In this document: in pieces, positions 22,240 to 59,150 of the stretch | Numbering within the stretch: the first letter of the stretch is position 1 | Layout of the letters: every line of letters starts with the position of its first letter | Origin: Ceratodon purpureus | Taxonomy: Eukaryota > Streptophyta > Bryopsida > Pseudoditrichales > Ditrichaceae | Length of the DNA stretch: 64,000 bases | Reading direction: 5' to 3' | NCBI GenBank assembly: GCA_014871385.1 | Contig: CM026432.1 | Location: 248,001-312,000 of the forward strand | Made by a program: the position numbers and the translations under genes | The notes under the pieces: generated by a model | The model's input: the letters and a program-made list of their open reading frames with translations, nothing else | Told to the model about the DNA's origin: nothing | Database searches by the model: none

Positions 22240-22560
22240 ACTCTAGTGGTTGGCAAGCGAGGGCGGACATTTGAAGGGGCCAGGAGCGTCGTTTCGAGCT
22301 GGCGTAAGCCGGTGCGAGACAAAAATGACTGCGGGCCCGCCAAACTGGACGTAGCTTGTACGTGAGCGGAGAGCGGAGAGCGGAGAGCGCAGATTTGGAG
22401 AGCGGAGAGCACAGAGTGGGGGACAAAACCTAAAAATAGCATTTTTTTTACTAAAAATAAATTATAAAATTAGAAGATTCGAATATTCCCAGTATATTTT
22501 TGGAAAGTTGCTAATTTTAGTAATTTTATTGACCCTATAACCGTGGACTAATTACAGTAT
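22240..22560. repeat. GAGCGG-microsatellite repeat, inverted relative to the copy at 58.35-58.50 kb
   Basis: TACGTGAGCGGAGAG followed by GAGCGGAGAG iterations (22359-22410), then about 150 bp later GACCCTATAACCGTGGA (near 22530). The reverse complement of 58375-58490 shows the same blocks in the same order, so these are two copies of one dispersed repeat in opposite orientation. Confidence 0.6.
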
Positions 22561-45067: not shown

Positions 45068-48000
45068 CTAAAGGTAGGCGCATGGATGAAAAGCTCGGCT
45101 TCGGGATTTGCAGACCTTCAAGAGTATGTAGTATAGGTGCTTACAATACGTGAACTGATTCCTGCCTCGGAACGTAGTCATCGTCTTCTGGAATGCAGGA
45201 CAAGTGCAACCAGGGTAAGAACTGATGGTAATCTGGTACCGTGTGATGTGTGGAGCGACGCCCGAATCCAGCCCAATGATGCAACCGTGGCCCGGCTCAG
45301 GTATCATGGTGACGGAACGGAGGCGCGCTTTCAGTGACTCGGAGGAGCCCATGGAGAGTCGCTGCGCCGGATTGGGACGAGTGGCAGTGCGCTTCACCAT
45401 CTTGCCGTCTCTCTTGCCTGGGTAGCGGTCAGCGTCTGCAGGGACTGGCACCGAGCTGAGATTTGCAGGGGGCGGGGCAGAGGAGAAGAGGCGTCTTGGG
45501 GAGACCGGCTTCTTCGGCGGAAGTTGAAAGCCTGCTGCTTCAAGGGCTAGAATCTCAGTCAGTTTTAGGTTAGTACCTAGTTTCATTGGCCAGACCTCAG
45601 GAATGGAGGGGAATTCCTGGTCCTTTGAGTAGTGTGCTACCCACTTGCGCTTAGAGCCTTTCACGCAGCGCTCAATATCGTCGGAGGAGAAGAAGAACTC
45701 AGTCTTCTCGACTAGGTTCCTGCGATAGTTAGTCCAGAGCCCAGTGTAGGTCGGTGCAGCTGTGCAATGGGGCCCCCTGACGATTCTCTCAGTGCACTTC
45801 TTCTTCGTTTCAGCTCTTTGGGCCCAGCAGCACTTCGCAAAAAGTTTGTGAAGTCTTGAGATGTGCCACTCTTTGACGTCGACCTTGGTTTCTTCAACCG
45901 CGTTGACATGGCGAATGCCGCCCTTGTTCACAGGTGAAGGTAAAGAGGAATCAACTTCCTTGGTTGGAGGTTGGGTACATTGTACCTCGGTGTCGTGTTC
46001 GGAGTCGTCTTCCACAATGACGGGCATCTGCATAGGGCGAGCCCTGACGGCACGTCTTGGGCCTCTTGGGCGCGAGAAGTTTGTCTTGTCCGGGCGATGA
46101 GACTCCTCGTCAGCTCCGATGAGGACGTCGGCTTTTCGCTTCTGTGAACCGAAGACTTCCGCTCCAGGCATGATAGGCTGACGGGTGCAGAACTCATCCG
46201 CGCCTGGCATATCGAGCATGGGCTTATCGAGCAGTGTAGGATTTCCCCATTTCTTCGCGTTGCGTTCAGCCATCCGGAGCCTGAGTTCCTTCTTGGATGG
46301 TCCTGTTCCGCCGACGTCACCTTTGAGGAACTGGTAGTAGTTTACAACCTGTAGAAAAGCCCGAACGAAATCGTCCACGGTAGCAACGTACAGGTCGTTC
46401 CCGTTGTTTCCTGAAGCTTGGAGCCACTTGTTGTGAACTGTTTCGGCGAGGTTACAGGTCGGCATCTCTGTGAGTTCTTCTTTCGTGAATTTCTGCAGAT
46501 TTGACAGTAGGTGCCGTTAGTTTCACGGATTAGAGTTTTGTAGGTTAGGGCTAGGAAACCAGTATCAAAAACATCAAAACAGAGTGCAGAGAGAATACCT
46601 CGGTCATGAATCCCCCCCACTGGCGGAAGCGGTGGTGCCAGAATGACAGCCACTGATCGAGTTTGATGAGCCCGCTCTCGCCAACGACCCCGGTGGATGC
46701 CCACCATGCTCGCAACGCATGGTACAGAGTTTCGGCCTCTGCCATGCTGGTCGCATTCTTGTACTGAGTGCACATCTTCTTGTGCTGTTCCCAGAGTTCT
46801 TCGGGGAAGTGCTTCTGCGTATACGCCACCATGTTCTGAGTCCAGTGGAACAAGCACGACCTCTCCCGGTCCTCCATTGGGTCTTCTTTGTTGCCATTGC
46901 CGTAGAGGATTCGCACTGCATTCCAATTCGCCTGTGCGTTATCCGCCATGAACCCCTTGAAGTTCGGCGCTGCAACGCCATTGATTTCCATGACCAGATT
47001 CAGGTTTTTCCAGAAGACGAGCTTGGCGTCCGTGTCCTCGGACTGCATGTCGCAAGTGGCGATTGTCATCACGCGGCAGTAGGTGGCATCGTACACATGG
47101 CACGCCATCGTCGACCAGTCTTTGACGCGTTTTACATGGTCGAACATGATCCATGCGTTCTCCAAGTCGCCACCAGCTTGCATACAGCTGACCAAGTCGA
47201 CACCACTTCCCGGCCCGACCTCCGACATCTTGAAGACGAAGACTTTGTCACGCATAGATCCCTGACCAGGAAACCTATTCTCCTGGACATACGCCCAGAG
47301 ACTGTTTCCACGGAGCTTGGTGATACCGTCCATGATTCCGTACCTTTTGAATTTTTTGAAGGTGGCGACTTTGTTGCCGATGTTTGGTGACGCCATGTCT
47401 TTGCAACGATCCAAAACAGGAACCAGCTCCTCCATCGTCAGCTTCCTCGGTGGTGCATCCTCGGGCTGTAGAAGGTAGCTCCCGATGAGGAGTTTGCTCG
47501 CCTCCAGGACAACGGCGCTCTTTGTTGCTTTGTTGTTCATCTCTACCTGCTCTTCTATTAAGCTATTAATCTCTGCTTTAGAGTCTCTTTAGTCTCCTAC
47601 TTTCACAGGATGATCATGTGTTCCTATGTGAATACAAGCTCTAGTCTGATTCGGTTTGCCCACAACGTAATAAATCTTAGCCTCGCATGTAGCTACACAT
47701 GATGGAGGTTCTTTACATACCTTGCACACTAGCGTGGAGTGAGATGGAGGAGGCTGATCCATGACAAAAGCTTGCAAGGTACAGCCTTCGAACTCAGTCT
47801 CGTTAACCTCGAAGATCTTGGGAACACGCTTGAGGAAGTCACACTCCTCGTTCGTGCAACGCAGCCATCCGACGCAGGTGGAACTTCGAAAAGAGAGTCC
47901 GAAGTCGTTTTTGATGTTTGTTGTGATGGTCTTGGTGCACAAGTGTCCGTCGTATCGTTTGTCCATTCCCTGCATTGACTTGGCGGCGAGCTTAGAGGAT

Positions 48001-48680
48001 CCTGCAGCAGCTGGTGGCAACTCAAAAAGAACCGGACCATCAAACTTCGCAGGCAAGTACTCTACTCTCTCGTGTCTAATAGTGGAATAGTCTATCTTCT
48101 TCAAAATGTTTTTGGACCCACGCGTCTTAGCAATCTCTTTAAGGAGCGGAACAATGCTAACTGTGACCTGGGACAATGGAGGAGAGACATTGGAAGGAGG
48201 AGCATCAGCGTGGACCTTGGGCACCAACTTGACGGGACTGACTTCATCATCAGAGGAGAGGGATATGACGGACGGAGGAGGAGGTTTTTCTACATCGGAA
48301 GTCTCAGCACCGGGCTCGACTTTGACCTTGACATCACGAGGTAAGGGAGTCTGAATTGTGCAAGTAGAAGAGCGACGAAGGGTGAGGATCTCAGTGGATG
48401 CAGCCATCAGAGAATCAGTAAGACCATAGACTCTATAGGATCCAGGGAGGAGTCTCCACTGCAACATATTGTTTTCATCTCTCACTGAAGGTTGCCCGAG
48501 GGTGTGGGTAACCTCGGCAGTAACGTCATCAAAGATCTCCTCCTCTATACTGATGGAATCCTCACGAAAATGGAATCTGAGATTGAGGCGAAGAGAGGAC
48601 ACCGTAGCTAGGCCATCGTCATCTACGCGAAACCTAAGAGGGATGCCCATGCCTTGGGCGTACAGACAGACCATCCCCAT
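45068..48680 (-). CDS. Mutator-like (MULE) transposase with SWIM zinc finger
   Basis: Inferred exons on the minus strand: 48680-47601, 47546-46599, 46492-45068 (all phase 0; 1150 aa). Donors are GTAGGA and GTATTC; acceptors end GAGCAG and CTGCAG. ATG 48680 follows an in-frame stop upstream. Exon 1 has an unassigned N-terminus, an acidic region, and near residues 265-355 a Cys/His cluster (CTNEECDFL, VCKVCKEPPSC, HIGTHDH) like the zinc modules that precede MULE catalytic domains. Exon 2 is the MULE domain: VYDATY (Asp near 513), FMADNAQANW (Asp near 562), then CLFHWTQNM. Exon 3 has a basic linker and a SWIM finger, CTCP..YCKH, near residues 1095-1120. The annotated stop at 45068 probably reflects a frameshift: near 45107-45109 one base changes frame, and the shifted frame runs to 45004 with credible leucine-rich coding. 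Otherwise intact. Confidence 0.8.
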
Positions 48681-49263
48681 ATTCGCAGGCAACTCAGAGA
48701 TACTAGAGGAAGACGGGAGAAAGGGAGTGTACTAGCGAAGCAGTATCGTGAGAGCAAAGTGAGAGGAATGATGCATCGTTGTTGATCATTTTATTCTAGT
48801 TGGAATGTCCATGTGGACGACTAGGTAATGATTCATTCTGTTACGAAACGAATGTATGATTAAAGAGAGACGGCGCTAACTAATTAGAATGTTGCTTTCT
48901 GCAGGCATGAGTGTAGGGATTTTTAGATGTACGCATTTAATATATGAATCGTGGAACCGATTCTATTTGATGTGGAGGTTGGTGAGATTAGACTGAGCCG
49001 TCAATTGTGTCCATATTTAATACAAGTTTTCCAGTGCTTAATTTAAAACTTTTATAATTTTGTGGGCTTCGTTTATTCTCTTCCAATATAGATTGATCTC
49101 ATCAGCTTTAATTCAAAATGCAATTATTTATAGTTTTCACTAATTTAAGTAGGTTAAGTATTGAGGGCTGAATCAGAGGACTTGAAGGTTTGGAATATAT
49201 AAGTGGAAGGGGAGTTAGAAGGAGAGCAATATTGTGAGGAGAGTTTTCTTGTTAGTTAGACAC
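48681..49263. promoter_or_regulatory. Divergent intergenic region, MULE transposase / ParB-methyltransferase gene
   Basis: 583 bp separate the two outward-reading start codons. TATATAAG at 49196-49203 is a good TATA box, about 60 bp before the plus-strand ATG at 49264. No clear TATA box was found for the minus-strand gene. AT-rich sequence in between. Confidence 0.45.
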
Positions 49264-50869
49264 ATGAAGGAGAGTGGAGGGTCAGCTCCCTCCACTTATG
49301 TCACTCCTAAACCTAGAAGAAAGGCATACGGTACAGATTTTACGAATAGGAGAGCGAGGAAGAGGAGAGAATTACGTGGGAAGTCAAAGTCGAAAGGCAA
49401 CCTACTGAGTGCACCTCTGAAGGTTCGAGGAGCTGGGCTGCCTGTGGCAATTAAATTTTGTAGCATTCGTAAACTCATTTTAGAGTCCATAGTCGAGGTG
49501 AAAGATGAGGTTTTAGAGGACATCGCAGTTGAGCATCAGGTGCATGAGGAAAGAAGTAGCGGAGAAAAACACCTAGAGATGACGGAAGACCTAGGGTTCA
49601 ATTCCAGTCCGACTTTAGAGACACCACAACCTTCGTTTGGAATCAAGGAGTGTTCAACAAGAGGGACGAATTCACAGTCGGCCGACCATTCTAACACGGA
49701 TGCGGTAAGTTTCATAATCGATACATTATAACATGCTAACTGTAAATAATGTATTTTTGAGAGTTACCTTCATTTTTATGTAATGTGTTAGCATTTCTAT
49801 TGTTTTACTAATTAGAGTTATGATGCCGCATCAAACCGAGTGGTTGTTTACAATAAGATATCCGAAGTATAAATACCCGTCATAGTCTTAAATATTTGTG
49901 CAGATTATCGATTGGTTTAGGATTGATCAAGAGGTTTTAGAGGAAAAGACGCCAGAAGTGGATGCGGGCGAGGAGTCCGATCCTGAGACATTGATAAGAG
50001 TGGCTCGTAGAGCAAGGCGAGAAATTATGGAGGCGGGCGAAGGTGGGGAAGCAATAGCTGCGAGACGAGCGGGACGAGGGGACCCCGGAAGTCCATCGTT
50101 GATGAGTCTAGACGAGGACCAATCGCCCGGTAGAATGGCGGGGCCCGTTGATGACAATGAATGTCAAGAGATAGAGATTGCGGATCGAGGGAGAGGAATA
50201 GATGGTCCAGGGAGAGGGAGAGGTCCAGGTTGTCGGAGGAAGGAGTCACGTGAGGGCACTTCGCAACTGAAGCTTGCGGCATCGGGGGTGGATTGTGCTG
50301 ACGGGAGAATGGCCGCGCGTGGAGAGGACCGAGGGGCAGAGGAGATGGAGAGCGTGGGAGGAGAGACGGATCGAGGCGCAGCCACTGAGGAGGTAAGGGT
50401 TCGAATTTGGGATTTTGGGGATGTGGGGTTGTTGAATGTTGAAGTGGGTGAGGTGGGGGATTCGTGGAATGCTATGCACAGGGTCGCTGAGTGAGAGATT
50501 CGGGATGCAAAACCCTCTGCACCTCTACCTGCGAGTGCAAAGGTTGAGGATTGGGCAATATCTGTTGAGATTTAGTTTTGGGTTTTTCATGAGGTTTCGG
50601 ATCTAGACGAAGTGGGGGAGTTGGGGGAAGGGGAAGTCAGGGGCGTCGCGGCTGCAGTGGATATTTATTCACAGGAGATGCGAACAATGGAGATGGAGGA
50701 AGTTGGGTCGAGGTGGGGCGCGTTTGCAGCATTTTGAGAGCTCGGAGCCACAGAGGAGGAGAAGGGCTTCACGGTCCTGCTGGTGCAGAGTGATTGGCAC
50801 CCCGCGACAACAAATGAGGTGAACTTCAAGGCCGCAAGCCCTGTGGTGGGAGATGCTGCCATTGCGGCA

Positions 50870-51975
50870 ACCATGGCCGCGGCTATGCATTCTGTACAGA
50901 ATGTCCAAGTTTCAGAGGAAGGGGAGATGGGGGGAGGCCGCGGGTGCAAGGAGTTGGGGGGCGCGACTGCCATGGCCGCGGCTATGCATTCTGTACATTC
51001 TGTACAGAATGTCCAAGTTTCGGAGGAAGGGGAGATGGGGGGAGGCCGCGGGTGCAAGGAGTTGGGGGGCGCGACTGCCATGGCCGCGGCTATGCATTCT
51101 GTACATTCTGTACAGAATGTCCAAGTTTCGGAGGAAGGGGAGATGGGGGGAGGCCGCGGGTGCAAGGAGTTGGGGGGCGCGACTGCCATGGCCGCGGCTA
51201 TGCATTCTGTACATTCTGTACAGAATGTCCAAGTTTCGGAGGAAGGGGAGATGGGGGGAGGCCGCGGGTGCAAGGAGTTGGGGGGCGCGACTGCCATGGC
51301 CGCGGCTATGCATTCTGTACATTCTGTACAGAATGTCCAAATTTCGGAGGAAGGGGAGATGGGGGGAGGCCGCGGGTGCAAGGAGTTGGGGGGCGCGACT
51401 GCCATGGCCGCGGCTATGGAGATGGAGGAAGTTGGGTCGAGGTGGGGCGCGTTTGCAGCATTTTGAGAGCTCGGAGCCACAGAGGAGGAGAAGGGCTTCA
51501 CGGTCCTGCTGGTGCAGAGTGATTGGCACCCCGCGACAACAAATGAGGTGAACTTCAAGGATGCAAGCCCTGTGGTGGGAGATGCTGCCATTGCGGCAGC
51601 CATGGCCGCGGCTATGCATTCTGTACAGAATGTCCAAGTTTCGGAGGAAGGGGAGATGGGGGGAGGCCGCGGGTGCAAGGAGTTGGGGGGCGCGACTGCC
51701 ATGGCCGCGGCTATGCATTCTGTACATTCTGTACAGAATGTCCAAGTTTCGGAGGAAGTGGAGATGGGGGGAGGCCGCGGGTGCAAGGAGTTGGGGGGCG
51801 CGATTGCCATGGCCGCGGCTATGCAGGGACTACATTCTGTACAGAATGTCCAAGTTTCGGAGGAAGGGGAGATGGGGGGAGGCCGCGGGTGCAAGGAGTT
51901 GGGGGGCGCGATTGCCATGGCCGCGGAGAGGAAGGGAGTACATTCTGTAGAGAATGTTGAAATTTGGGAGGAAGA
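50870..51975. repeat. 108-bp minisatellite with a 729-bp higher-order repeat
   Basis: About ten copies of a 108-bp unit (first unit of each block 99 bp), containing GCCATGGCCGCGGCTATGC and the perfect palindrome ACATTCTGTACAGAATGT. Two blocks of copies are separated by a non-repeat segment (51420-51600) that also occurs before the first block (50690-50870), giving a 729-bp higher-order duplication. The unit length is a multiple of three and free of stops in most frames, which creates long artefactual ORFs on both strands. By splice logic it lies in intron 2 (50393-52111) of the ParB/methyltransferase gene. Confidence 0.92.
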
Positions 51976-52443
51976 ATAGTTTATCATTCTGTACAGAATG
52001 TGGGGATTGGGGGTGGGGGGCAAAATAGATTACCATCTCATGACGATATTATTTGTTTGGATTGCAACTGTTTGTTGGAATCTTATAATTAGTTTGTTGT
52101 CTGTGTTGTAGGAGTTCACAGATCAACTCACTACAACTGAAGCTGATGGTCCAACTCCTGCAGAAACTAAGGTAATTTAATCTTATTTTCTTTTATTTTT
52201 GAATATTGCAATGTAGATTAAACTTCTTTAAGTAGTTTTGTAACCTAAATTGGTTAATTGACAATATATTTTTTCCTCTGTTTGTAGGTATTCTCAGATG
52301 CACCCTTGTCCATCAGTTCTCCAATCACAGTGATCAATGTTTCCGACCTCTCGGATTCATTTGATCAGCCCCATTTATGTAGGTGTGATTTAGGAAACCC
52401 TGTAGGTTTAGGTAGTGCACCTGTCGAGGTCCACTCTCCTCAG

Positions 52444-52506
52444 TACATGCCTACATCTCCTCTCTATGAGCCTACATCCCCGAGCTATATGCCCACTTCT
52501 CCACGA
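52444..52506 (+). other. Three tandem CTD-like heptads
   Basis: Encodes YMPTSPL, YEPTSPS, YMPTSPR, followed by Pro/Ser-rich text. Only position 2 and the last position depart from the RNA polymerase II consensus YSPTSPS. Confidence 0.85.
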
Positions 52507-55500
52507 CTTGGTACCCCGCCAATGTCTCCACCTTCTCCTTCCTCGCCTACTAGAGTGAGGAGGCCAGCCCATGTTGTCTTCGCTCTACCGGCGATACTGC
52601 CTTGCCCTGTCCAGCAGACCAGGCGTTTTTGGAGGAGGCGCCGTCATTGGAACTGTAGACAGGCTAGGGAGTATTATAGCCGTGCTCCACGTACATAGTG
52701 GCCTATGTACTACTTTCTTTTGTTTGTGTTTTGAGTTGGTTTTCCAGAAGAGATGTATCAGTTCTAAAAGCTACTGGTTTATTCTTCTTCATAATTGTTT
52801 TACTTATTCTCATCCTTGTCTTCGAATCAAATTTGAAAATGTATGACTTCTGGCAGGTAACTCAGACACAGGATATGTTGCCAGCGCCATCTTGTCCTCC
52901 TGATTTGACGAATGTAGTGGACAGTGAATTGGGACATCGGGTACAACACAAGCAAGACTCCAATGGTGTCATCAACAAGCTCCGAATACTTCCAAAGTCG
53001 AAGTCGCGTATCCTAGTTCCCCTTTGCAGAATGATCTCTATGGCAAGAGTGAGACCTGTAGGAGAAATGGGAGTTCAGCATTTGGAGCGCGAGTTTGTCA
53101 AAGGATATAGAGATGGAGACCGAGTCATGTACATTTCCATCTACGACCATGAAGAGAAGACAGCCGATGTCACGGAGGAGACCAAGGCTGAGTGGAGCCC
53201 TTGTTGGCAAAAAGCGAATGATGCTTTCGAAGATGAGCTCTTGGCCGACTCGGATTTGAAGGAGTTTTCTGGGAAGATGTTCTATGTCTGGGAAGGTAAC
53301 CATCGCCTTGCCGCATGGTACAGACATATCAACAAACATCACAGCGAAGATCCAGCATGGCACATTTTTGTGCATTGCATTGTTCTTGACCCGCGCGGTC
53401 ATGTGGGAAACCTTCTACATGCCATGCACGACATAAACTGGTGAGAATTTGAACCCTCTATTTTGTCCATTCCTCTTGCACGCAGCTTGATGTCGTTCTT
53501 CATGCATTCTACTAACCATCGTCTATTCGTACAGGTCTACAGAAAATGATCATGTAAAGAGTAATATTCCGGCAAAACTTTTCCTAATTCGCTCTTTTGG
53601 TGTGATGAAATTGGAGGAATTCAAGGATCTCCTCACACCAGCGGAGTATCATTTATGTTTGAACCACAAACCGGCTAATCCATCCTGGTTTACCTTGCCA
53701 ACCAAAGTCTTCATCGCATTTCTTTATCGTGTAAGCACTTCTTTCTCCCCCCCTCACACTTCCATATCGACAAATGATTTGTGTTTGTTTGTAAACTTAC
53801 AATTTCATAAATCTGTTTTCCAGAGAGAAATCACGGCTGCTTCTGACGAAGCTGCCCGAGTCTACAAGACGAAAACAGCCACTGAAGACCAAACCGCGAC
53901 TGGTGTTTGGGATGCCATGAATGCAGCTTCAACCAACATGGTGGAACTCATTAAGAGGAAGGACTTCACCAAGTATTTGGCAATTGCAAATCCCAAGAAC
54001 GGTGACGACTTCCTCAACGAAGTGAGACCCTCACCCTAGTTCACTTAAGTATTTCCTTTTACTACATCGATTTGTATTCATATTTTCTTAAACTCCTGTA
54101 CTTATTTCAGATTAATCGGCATTTCAGTGAGAACAATAAACCTGAGATGTCCCTCGATAAGCTTCAGAAGATTGTTCCAGCGGCCGTGGAGGCCAAATAC
54201 AAGACTCGTTGGTTGAGGTGGTGGAACTCATCTCTGAGTTCCCGAATGTCCTACAGATTTCTACCACCTAAATTCAAGGATACCGATTTCGACCCTTGGT
54301 TGAACAAGGCTTCATTCTGGGCAGGGGTATAGTTTTTTGAAAACCTTTTCAATGTCTTGATTCTTTCTTCTCTTCCTCTATTCCCTCTCACTGCTAATTA
54401 ATTCAATTCTGAATTACAGTTGGAGGAAGCCGTCATCAACGAATTTCAGGACATATGCAAGGCGGAGAACCTCGATATCAATTGGAAGGCATTTCTTGAT
54501 GTCCAAGAGCCGGGCGATTATGTGGAGAGTGCACGTATTATGTTGTGGGACAAGGCCTTCCCTACGTTCATTGGAAAGAATGCTGATAAGCCATTCGACA
54601 AGAAGTCCATTTTTGCTAAATTTCCTGGAACCGCTCAGGTTGTCAAGCGGGTTACTTATCGGTACGATACATACCATTTAATCAGATTCAAATTCCAGAA
54701 TGAGGTCTCTTTATCTTTTTTATACTAACCTTCTACATATTGGTTTACTTACGTACTTCAGGCGAGAGCTTGTTTTGAAGGGGGCCATCACGGTCCAGCA
54801 GCTCCCCAACTACTTCCTTGCTTGGACGTCGAAAACCTTGGACTAGTGTATCTATTCTCCCCAACAGTTGAAAAGGTACAAAGCTCCTCACTTGCTTGAG
54901 GGATGCTGGTATCTTGATTGCTCTCGTGGTTTCACGATTGACTCAGAGGCGGACGTCAAGACTCTACACGATGGGGGTGAGGTCGTAGCGGAGGACTCCG
55001 TGGATGATGCAGAAGGTTGTGAAGGAGAGCAGGATCAGTCTTCTGCTCCACCACCGAAGAGAGGGAGAGGAAGGCGACTGAAATCTCTGCGTTCCCAGTC
55101 AGAGGCATCACAGCAAACTGGTGCGGAGTCATCAGCGCCAGCTGAGAAGGCACCAGAGCCCTCTCCGGGTATTGTCGTTACGAATCCTTCTCCAGCTTCT
55201 TCGCCGGCTCCTTCCTCGATCAGTGCTTCCGAGGTCACCAGAGGGCTCCTCGAGCAGAGGAAGGCCAAACTATATCCTCAAACAACTTCTTCCGCTGGAG
55301 CTTCAATTTCCACACATGTTTCCGTCTTCAACTCATCTGTGGATTCCATGTTACGGCGAAATAAGAGACAGGAGAGAAAAGGTGGCGACCCGGATTGGAT
55401 CAAGACTCAAGACTTCATTCGCAAGGTATGTTCCGATATTTGGACATTTAATGGATTCTGCCACCTCTACTCGCTATGTAGTTACTAACTCTCCTTTTTT

Positions 55501-56849
55501 ATTTCCTCAAGTTTAGAGCAGGCCGCGAAAACGAAGTTCCGGACCGGTGCAAACAAGAGGACCATCTGAGAGTCGACTTGATCATTGCCGACATCCCTGA
55601 GAATCTTCCCGTCCCATCCGTTTCCGTTCCCCCCACGAGTATTCCGCCTTGGAACTCTCGCGAGAAGGATTATGTGTTCGACATCTTCCGTTTTGCAGAT
55701 AAATTCCTGCAGAAAGATGGTGCCATCTGCCTCATCTACAACACTGATCAGAAGCTCGCTTAGGATGTCGATGAAGAAGCTGCTGGTGGTGACTACGTGC
55801 TGTTCAAGGACTGGTGGGGCGTCAATGTCCTCGGCCTCACTTCTCCTACGAACCCCGAGAACGTGGTACTTTTCCTAAACATACCCTTCTCTTTACTTAC
55901 TGATAACCCTTCCGCTTAATTTTACTCACTAGTTTTGCTTGACTGCAAACTATGCGGTTCTAGATTCGCGTCTACGTTCGTAGTGGCAGTACTTTCTCCT
56001 TCCAGACGAAGAAGTCCGAGCTGATACATGGGCTCCTCAACATTACCGAGAGTGATGTCATTTTCAACTTCACTGATGTGGAATCTCAGCTCATGAATGG
56101 GGAGGTGCCGTGGAGAAGCCCAAGGGAGAAATCCCCTGAGATGATGCAGAGCATCATTGAGGAGCTGTCAAAGCCCGGCGACATAGTCCTTGATTGGAAT
56201 GCTGGGATAGGTAACTCTTCTTACATATCTCTGCTTCATTTTTCCTCTCTTTTTTTCCACAGTTTCTCATTTCTTTGTTTCTCTCCGAGTTTCAGGGGCC
56301 TCCATCAAGGCCGCCCAGGCTGTTGGTCGTCACATTCTTGCTTTTGAGGAGGACGAAGCCATATTCAACGCCCTTCTCAAACCGAGCATGGCTAGACCAT
56401 CCGCCATGGGCCCTCCTAAACATCCAAGGCCGGCAGCAGCAGGCGAAGCGCCTCCAAAGAGAGCAAGACCTGATAAGTGGTGTAAGTCTTCTATTCTTTG
56501 TTCAAATTATCCAATCATTACTTCTCTTTCCAGCTCTACGTACTCGATCTAACCACAATCGGTTCTCTATTGCAGAGTAGTTTCAGCAACACCGCCACGT
56601 GGGCCAAGAGCAGTGTCCACTCCATCGTGGCGTCTTCATTCCAGCCTGATTCAGCCTTTCATACTTCCGGACTACGCAGAGGGCTTAGCACAGGCGTTTC
56701 AATCTGGAGCCCTTACATATGTTCCTAGTCGGCCAACTACTTTTGATCCCAGGGCCCTTCTATTCGTCGATGACGAGGCGGTAGAAGGAGATTCAGAGTC
56801 ATCTAGTTCTGAGAGTGGAAGTAGTGATGGTAGCATGTTCTGAGTTTGA

Positions 56850-58350: not shown

Positions 58351-58500
58351 TCAAAATTAGGCCTTAATTTAGTAATTTTCCACGGTTATAGGGTCTACTT
58401 TGCTTTTGAAAATTTTCCTAATTGTCAATTCTGTGCTCTCCATTCTGCGCTCACCGCTCTCCGCTCTACCCTCTCCGCTCACGTACGAACTTTCCCCCCA
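58350..58500 (-). repeat. Inverted copy of the 22.24-22.56 kb GAGCGG repeat
   Basis: Plus-strand text CCACGGTTATAGGGTC followed by CTCTCCGCTC-type iterations and CACGTACG is the reverse complement of the block order at 22.3-22.56 kb. Confidence 0.6.
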
Positions 58501-59150
58501 CCAAACTCAGCCCACCAAGCTTGAGGGGCATCGCTGTGGATGCTCTTACAATATTACACTAAAAGAAATTGGAGTCGTTCAAAGCCCCTGTCTGTGTTTG
58601 CAGGGTACATTGAGTAAGGTGTAGACACCCACAACTGATAACTTACCAATAACCGATATATTCGAATTCCTAGATTGTGAAAGAAAAAAAGTACCTCATT
58701 TGTATATCTCGGTTATTGGTTCTGAAGTACTTTTCACTTTGAAAAATTGAACAAATTTCAATATTGGGAGATAATTCATGGAAAAATGCTCATTCTTCAT
58801 GAACCTTATTTTCCTACTAACCAAAATTATCTCCTTATCGATAACCCAAGCTTTGATATGCTGAAATGCTTTAAGTTGTCAGTTATAGGTGTCTGTACCT
58901 TAAATTCAATGCAAGAGACTCCTGCTTTTGGTGCAAAGGGATGTACACTAGATGTCAATCAGCACACTTTCCTCAGCCTTGTTCCAAGCAGGACCTTCAT
59001 TTGGACTGATGGAAATCCACCGGCCACACTCCTTTCGTTGAACTAGAGTTCTCTGACTGCTGTAGCTGACCTTCAGAAAGTTACCACATCCTAAAACTTG
59101 AGTTCTTTCAAGTAGAAAAAAAGACAAAAGAAACCATCTTTAGGCTCCAT
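58500..59150. other. AT-rich spacer
   Basis: Contains an unsupported 99-codon plus-strand frame (58747-59046) with no start context, splice or domain signal. Nothing else recognised. Confidence 0.35.

Follow-up and report, generated by a model that had tools for sequence, protein, structure and literature searches.

Introduction

Genes that join a ParB-like domain to a DNA methyltransferase have already been published from algal transposons (PMC12477816). In Ectocarpus, the 21.5-kb DNA transposon Sola1-1_Ec32 is described as encoding a 1104-amino acid protein with a ParB-like and an N4/N6 methyltransferase part on the strand opposite the transposase, and similar proteins are cited in the same account for green and red algal transposons (PMC12477816). 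ParB-type folds, which are reported to bind CTP, ATP, or GTP, are also often fused to N6N4 methyltransferases in phages (PMC12704722). Here we analyze a gene of this architecture in the moss Ceratodon purpureus, located at 49264-56843 of a stretch of 64,000 nucleotides (hereafter, the window; positions 248,001 to 312,000 of CM026432.1, which is contig C12 in our numbering). A preliminary description of the window, made from its letters alone, had proposed an intron-rich ParB-methyltransferase fusion that was either domesticated or transposon-borne. The ParB-methyltransferase gene belongs, as the second gene, to a DNA transposon that has a transposase-like gene on the opposite strand, and it is almost certainly an accessory gene of that transposon.

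The gene lies within a high-copy MULE-like element

The borders of the host element were defined by comparison with four copies, on contigs C3, C7, C8, and C10 (45 kb each), which places the whole transposon at 22347-58497, or about 15.4 kb without a nested insertion. The element ends in terminal inverted repeats at 22347-22393 (plus strand, with GCGGAGA-type subterminal repeats) and 58444-58497 (minus strand), and is bordered by 10-bp target-site duplications at 22337-22346 and, as placed by comparison with other insertions, 58498-58507. Inverted repeats together with 10-bp duplications, where the Mutator-like element (MULE) superfamily is characterized by 8-11 bp, are present at six insertions; the duplications are perfect on C10, C7, and C8 and at two C3 insertions, and match at 9 of 10 bases in the window copy. 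The transposase-like gene occupies 45071-48731 on the minus strand, and its (i) C/H fingers, (ii) D..E..W plus CxxH core, and (iii) SWIM-like CxC..CxH motif were all recognized by eye. A Pfam scan of its protein gave no MULE transposase match, and SWIM remained below the cut-off (E 0.11). We call the element MULE-like, from its 10-bp duplications and from transposase motifs read by eye. The window copy of the transposase-like gene has one in-frame stop inside its first long open reading frame (ORF); the C7 copy contains long ORFs of ∼700 and 505 codons, presumably joined by an intron. The gene adjoins the ParB gene in the window, in the four long copies, and at loci L037 and L030.

A search with the ParB exon gave at least 150 matches in the C. 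purpureus genome (362.5 Mb in 151 contigs), each with 85-100% identity and E ≤1.2e-113, these 150 having been scored among 1898 candidates. The inverted repeats, the target duplications, and the copy number of at least 150 thus bear out the transposon-borne option, and they argue against the domesticated one. A domesticated host gene for reading or writing DNA methylation would fit the intact frames and purifying selection described below, but not a gene that sits within terminal inverted repeats in at least 150 copies, with target duplications and decayed copies; we reject a host gene on the grounds of copy number and duplications, and consider it extremely improbable. At the C3 locus (L009-L013), several nested or truncated copies of the host element lie together, one of them within the transposase-like gene of another copy.

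Intact copies are under purifying selection

Ten copies, namely those of the window, C3, C7, C8, C10, and L029-L033, which form a non-random choice from the top and the lower part of the match list, were spliced by alignment. In six of them, the reading frame is open over 1046-1051 codons, including the stop; the window copy contains two in-frame TAGs (54844-54846 and 55761-55763), and the frames of L030, L031, and L033 are broken. Of the 15 pairings among the six intact copies, 14 gave a ratio of nonsynonymous to synonymous rates (dN/dS) of 0.21-0.32, and the closest pair gave 0.49; pooled values by region were 0.16 (ParB), 0.20 (middle), 0.26 (linker), 0.38 (methyltransferase), and 0.24 (tail). 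As these values are well below 1, the protein has been maintained, and the gene is under purifying selection between copies. The same values argue against an inert passenger taken from a phage or bacterium, as does the altered catalytic motif common to a deep family of relatives (see below), and although ParB-N6N4 methyltransferase fusions are frequent in phages (PMC12704722), we regard a passenger as very improbable.

Decay of the ParB exon is unevenly distributed. In a hand count among the matches listed, in-frame stops occur in 20 ParB exons, 18 of which lie on contig C6, compared with 42 of the 130 that are stop-free (Fisher p about 1e-6). Contig C6, with 110.5 Mb, makes up 30.5% of the genome and carries 60 of the at least 150 ParB exons (again among the matches listed). 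The C. purpureus genome is described as ∼360 Mb, with U and V chromosomes of >100 Mb each, or ∼30% of the genome (PMC8000587), and the pattern looks like ParB-exon decay on C6, seemingly a sex chromosome.

The ParB/sulfiredoxin part

The exon at 52857-53440 (plus strand) was modeled as a ParB/sulfiredoxin alpha+beta fold in a predicted structure, and EGNHRLAAW lies at 53292-53318 (with EGNHR at 53292-53306), so that the ParB/sulfiredoxin assignment of the preliminary description holds for both motif and fold. The Arg box, G-x-[HR]-R, reads GNHR (SNHR in one row) in 77 of 83 aligned rows. A Pfam scan of these 83 members gave no match to any ParB N-domain family; CB_ParB_C and DUF6551 appeared in 2 and 3 members, respectively, at a chance level (best E 0.06-0.09). 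Of the canonical ParB traits, neither a helix-turn-helix nor a C-terminal dimerization domain had a Pfam match in the window protein, and the ParB alignment found no relative in viral_contigs. Separately, two viral contigs (L034, 1214-3003; L035, 1389-3400) encode a canonical DPPY methyltransferase right after an ORF with a ParB-like motif, which was read by eye as FGCHR in L034 and DGATR in L035; Pfam supports the methyltransferase alone.

The methyltransferase part has an altered catalytic motif

Exons 11-13 (55512-55865, 55964-56210, and 56296-56481, plus strand) comprise a permuted beta-class N6/N4 methyltransferase fold, in which motif IV precedes motif I. The motif IV-like VDLIIADIPENL resides in exon 11, and the motif I-like DIVLDWNAGIGAS is formed by the splicing of exon 12 to exon 13; the permuted order that had been proposed is thus supported by the motifs as well as by the fold. 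An initial search with the whole protein gave no match, and the relatives found afterwards are short ORFs. Profile alignment placed the family sequence vDLIiaDiPenLpV on VDLIFADPPYNLQL of CcrM, which makes DIPE (55590-55601) the motif IV equivalent in the window. We read the catalytic tetrapeptide by alignment column in the 30 of 42 rows that have letters there, and a pattern search agreed: the catalytic [DNS]PP[YFW] occurs in none of the 30, its place being taken by DIPE (24 rows), DLPE (2), DVPE (2), DVPK (1), and NLPK (1). One row, P0014, contains an SPPF about a dozen residues downstream of the motif columns. In alignment A2, all five moss copies have DIPE. Further, a PWR..REK block, encoded in exons 12 and 13 together with the putative S-adenosylmethionine (SAM)-binding motif I, was found by pattern in 33 rows with minor variants. 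At motif I, which in beta-class enzymes is of the DxFxGxG type, the six intact copies read DWNAGTG, and a glycine is changed in many relatives.

Because the catalytic tetrapeptide is replaced, the family likely lacks the usual base methylation, and we consider it likely that the ParB-methyltransferase protein itself carries out no N4 or N6 methylation; the earlier suggestion that the gene marks DNA methylation is weakened accordingly. The alternative, an active N4-cytosine or N6-adenine methyltransferase that would mark the very element carrying it, an idea put forward for Sola1 of Ectocarpus, could draw on the nearest solved folds, which include active enzymes, on the partly retained SAM motif region, and on the published proposal that a like architecture modifies its own element (PMC12477816). 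It is nonetheless unlikely, given the absence of [DNS]PP[YFW] from all readable rows, the altered motif I glycines in several relatives, and the reported loss of activity of the rotifer N4CMT upon a change of SPPY to APPA (PMC8885841). We infer from the alignment that the conserved DIPENLPVP must serve some other role. None of the present results ties the gene to the N4-methylcytosine of Marchantia, which the preliminary description had brought up.

The presence of the D[IL]PE family in a prokaryote or virus was considered and set aside, since the pattern searches made gave no relative in genome_contigs or viral_contigs. Alignment A2 itself matched three viral methyltransferase loci at 27-29% identity, of which the two inspected have DPPY. 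Taken together, relatives, selection, and fold place the ParB/methyltransferase observation beyond chance.

Exon chain

The remaining exons, all on the plus strand, are (i) four upstream exons with YxPTSP repeats (49264-49704, 49904-50392, 52112-52171, and 52288-52698), which form either a separate ORF or the 5' part of a fusion; (ii) a middle region without a known domain (53535-53730, 53824-54021, 54111-54326, and 54420-54661); (iii) a linker exon (54762-55425), which holds the first in-frame TAG of the window copy, the second being in exon 11; and (iv) a last exon with an acidic, Ser-rich tail (56578-56843). From exon 5 onward, the window introns are all GT-AG with matching phases, as expected of the spliceosomal exons that had been predicted. 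Exon lengths are mostly constant across the other copies, with exon 13 being 15 bases shorter in several, and some acceptor letters are displaced in the multiple alignment of copies.

The predicted chain holds together from exon 5 onward, but a single chain of 14 exons is doubtful because of exon 4. A TAG at 52696-52698 closes the exon 4 frame, and its bases are found in 10 of 10 copies (in-frame as printed in eight, the slices of L032 and L033 beginning inside the exon). The stretch of exon 4 ahead of this TAG differs from L038 by 8 synonymous and 3 nonsynonymous changes over 49 codons. The exon 5 acceptor is likewise retained in 10 of 10 copies, and a donor-like GTGAGG in phase 0 at 52555 would permit exon 4 to be joined to exon 5. 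Two proteins, or a fusion made through alternative splicing, are therefore possible. The YMPTSPLYEPTSPSYMPTSPR repeats of the upstream ORF at 52288-52698, which are also kept in other copies, resemble the heptads of the RNA polymerase II C-terminal domain.

A palindrome array in the upstream region

A tandem array with nine exact copies of the palindrome CATTCTGTACAGAATG is located at 50888-52000, between upstream exons 2 and 3. The number of exact 16-bp palindromes is 9 in the window, 6 in C3, 7 in C10, 9 in C8, and 22 in C7 (53 in all), such that the array is present in five of five close copies, compared with none of two diverged loci. When units were chosen by another part of the unit, 50 of 59 had the exact 16-bp core, and the other nine had 1-8 mismatches. 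An earlier conservation figure (99.5% versus 68%, with 85% for the best other 16 bases) was discarded as inflated, its units having been selected by their palindrome match. Symmetry of the flanks past the 18-bp core is weak, as shuffled sequences attain the observed symmetry in 0.2% and 1.1% of cases at two positions out of eight, and the flanks are related.

Many of the array periods are divisible by 3, and long frames are present. In C7, where frames are open on both strands, one open frame translates the palindrome to HSVQN in some repeats but to YILYRM in others; since the core is read in more than one phase, the DNA rather than a peptide seems to be conserved, and we favor a DNA site over a protein-coding repeat. 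The palindrome as a family-wide site was rejected, as it is missing from L037 and L038: L037 has no such array, and in L038 it is replaced by a 171-bp tandem unit of at least 19 copies, for which BLAST gave no match in the window. Related elements with differing arrays are also described for the VANC targets of VANDAL MULEs (PMC5735166).

The array bears on whether the gene product could be a transposition co-factor like maize mudrB, which would assemble on the ends and repeats and have no epigenetic role. The position beside the transposase-like gene, seen in the window as well as in the four long copies and at L037/L030, the GCGGAGA-type subterminal repeats, and a report that mudrB is apparently required for integration (PMC6446971) are in keeping with such a co-factor, but the clearest conserved site is the internal array rather than the ends, and we consider a pure co-factor doubtful.

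A nested CACTA element

A CACTA/EnSpm element of 20.7 kb, foreign to the host element, is inserted at 24127-44869, with CACTAGTCCAA terminal inverted repeats and a 3-bp duplication, CAA. The uninterrupted empty site, GACAAAGCC, was seen in C7, C8, and C10. Pfam recognized Transposase_21 (2.8e-70) and DUF4218 among its proteins, with DUF4216 below the cut-off; the element also encodes a protein with a sub-threshold Transposase_24 match and more ORFs without a Pfam match. This Transposase_21 element was rejected as the carrier of the ParB gene, as the copies show it to be a separate 20.7-kb insertion.

Proposed role and comparison with known systems

The ParB-methyltransferase protein probably binds DNA as an accessory factor in anti-silencing or transposition. 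The explanation that we favor overall, if only slightly, is an accessory gene of a high-copy MULE-like element, whose product would combine a DNA-binding pseudo-methyltransferase with a ParB switch. The methyltransferase part may act as a DNA-binding, perhaps SAM-binding, scaffold, with the ParB part as a switch that depends on a nucleotide; jointly, the two could bind the repeat arrays or the ends of their own element, and the bound protein would keep the element expressed or aid transposition, in parallel with the MULE protein VANC, which binds tandem motif arrays and lifts silencing. Beyond the folds, these are steps that we infer. That the protein acts on repeats of its own element is a tentative proposal, about which we are nearly evenly divided, and that its role is anti-silencing rather than that of a transposition co-factor is possible, though we lean against it. 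A more specific model, in which a nucleotide-switched ParB clamp and a catalytically dead methyltransferase reader load on the palindrome arrays, as in a parS/ParB-like system, and shield the element against silencing by the host while arrays and protein co-evolve from one subfamily to another, is speculative and quite unlikely. The rewritten methylating center gives a hint of the way in which a selfish element might direct its own regulation.

Among known systems, phage and bacterial proteins (PMC12704722; Bce_0392, PMC5512222) are described as joining the same two folds, a ParB-CTPase fold and an N6_N4 methyltransferase, whereas the moss gene has eukaryotic exons, a long middle region, and D[ILV]PE in place of [DNS]PP[YFW]. 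The rotifer N4CMT differs in its SPPY, its chromodomain, and its shown activity, and is reported as a host gene that acts on transposons (PMC8885841). VANC of VANDAL MULEs is similar in being an extra MULE gene, with targets described in fast-changing tandem arrays that may also be intronic (PMC5735166), but DUF1985 and DUF287 are absent from the matches of the moss protein at E up to 10. If our reading is right, the 16-bp palindrome array also offers a defined DNA site for direct tests of binding and anti-silencing. Sola1-1_Ec32, as described, resembles the moss element in carrying a two-domain protein inside a DNA transposon on the strand opposite the transposase; compared by description, the moss gene differs in its MULE-like element with 10-bp duplications, its replaced catalytic motif, and its palindrome arrays. 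The rewritten methyltransferase center argues against the published suggestion of self-methylation, at least in the moss branch. As far as searches of mostly non-subscription literature show, several features of the present case are new: its host is a moss, its carrier is MULE-like, its catalytic motif is replaced, and it comes with selection data and palindrome arrays. If our reading is correct, accessory proteins of the ParB-methyltransferase kind, recently described from algal transposons, are thereby extended to a land plant and to a MULE-like element.
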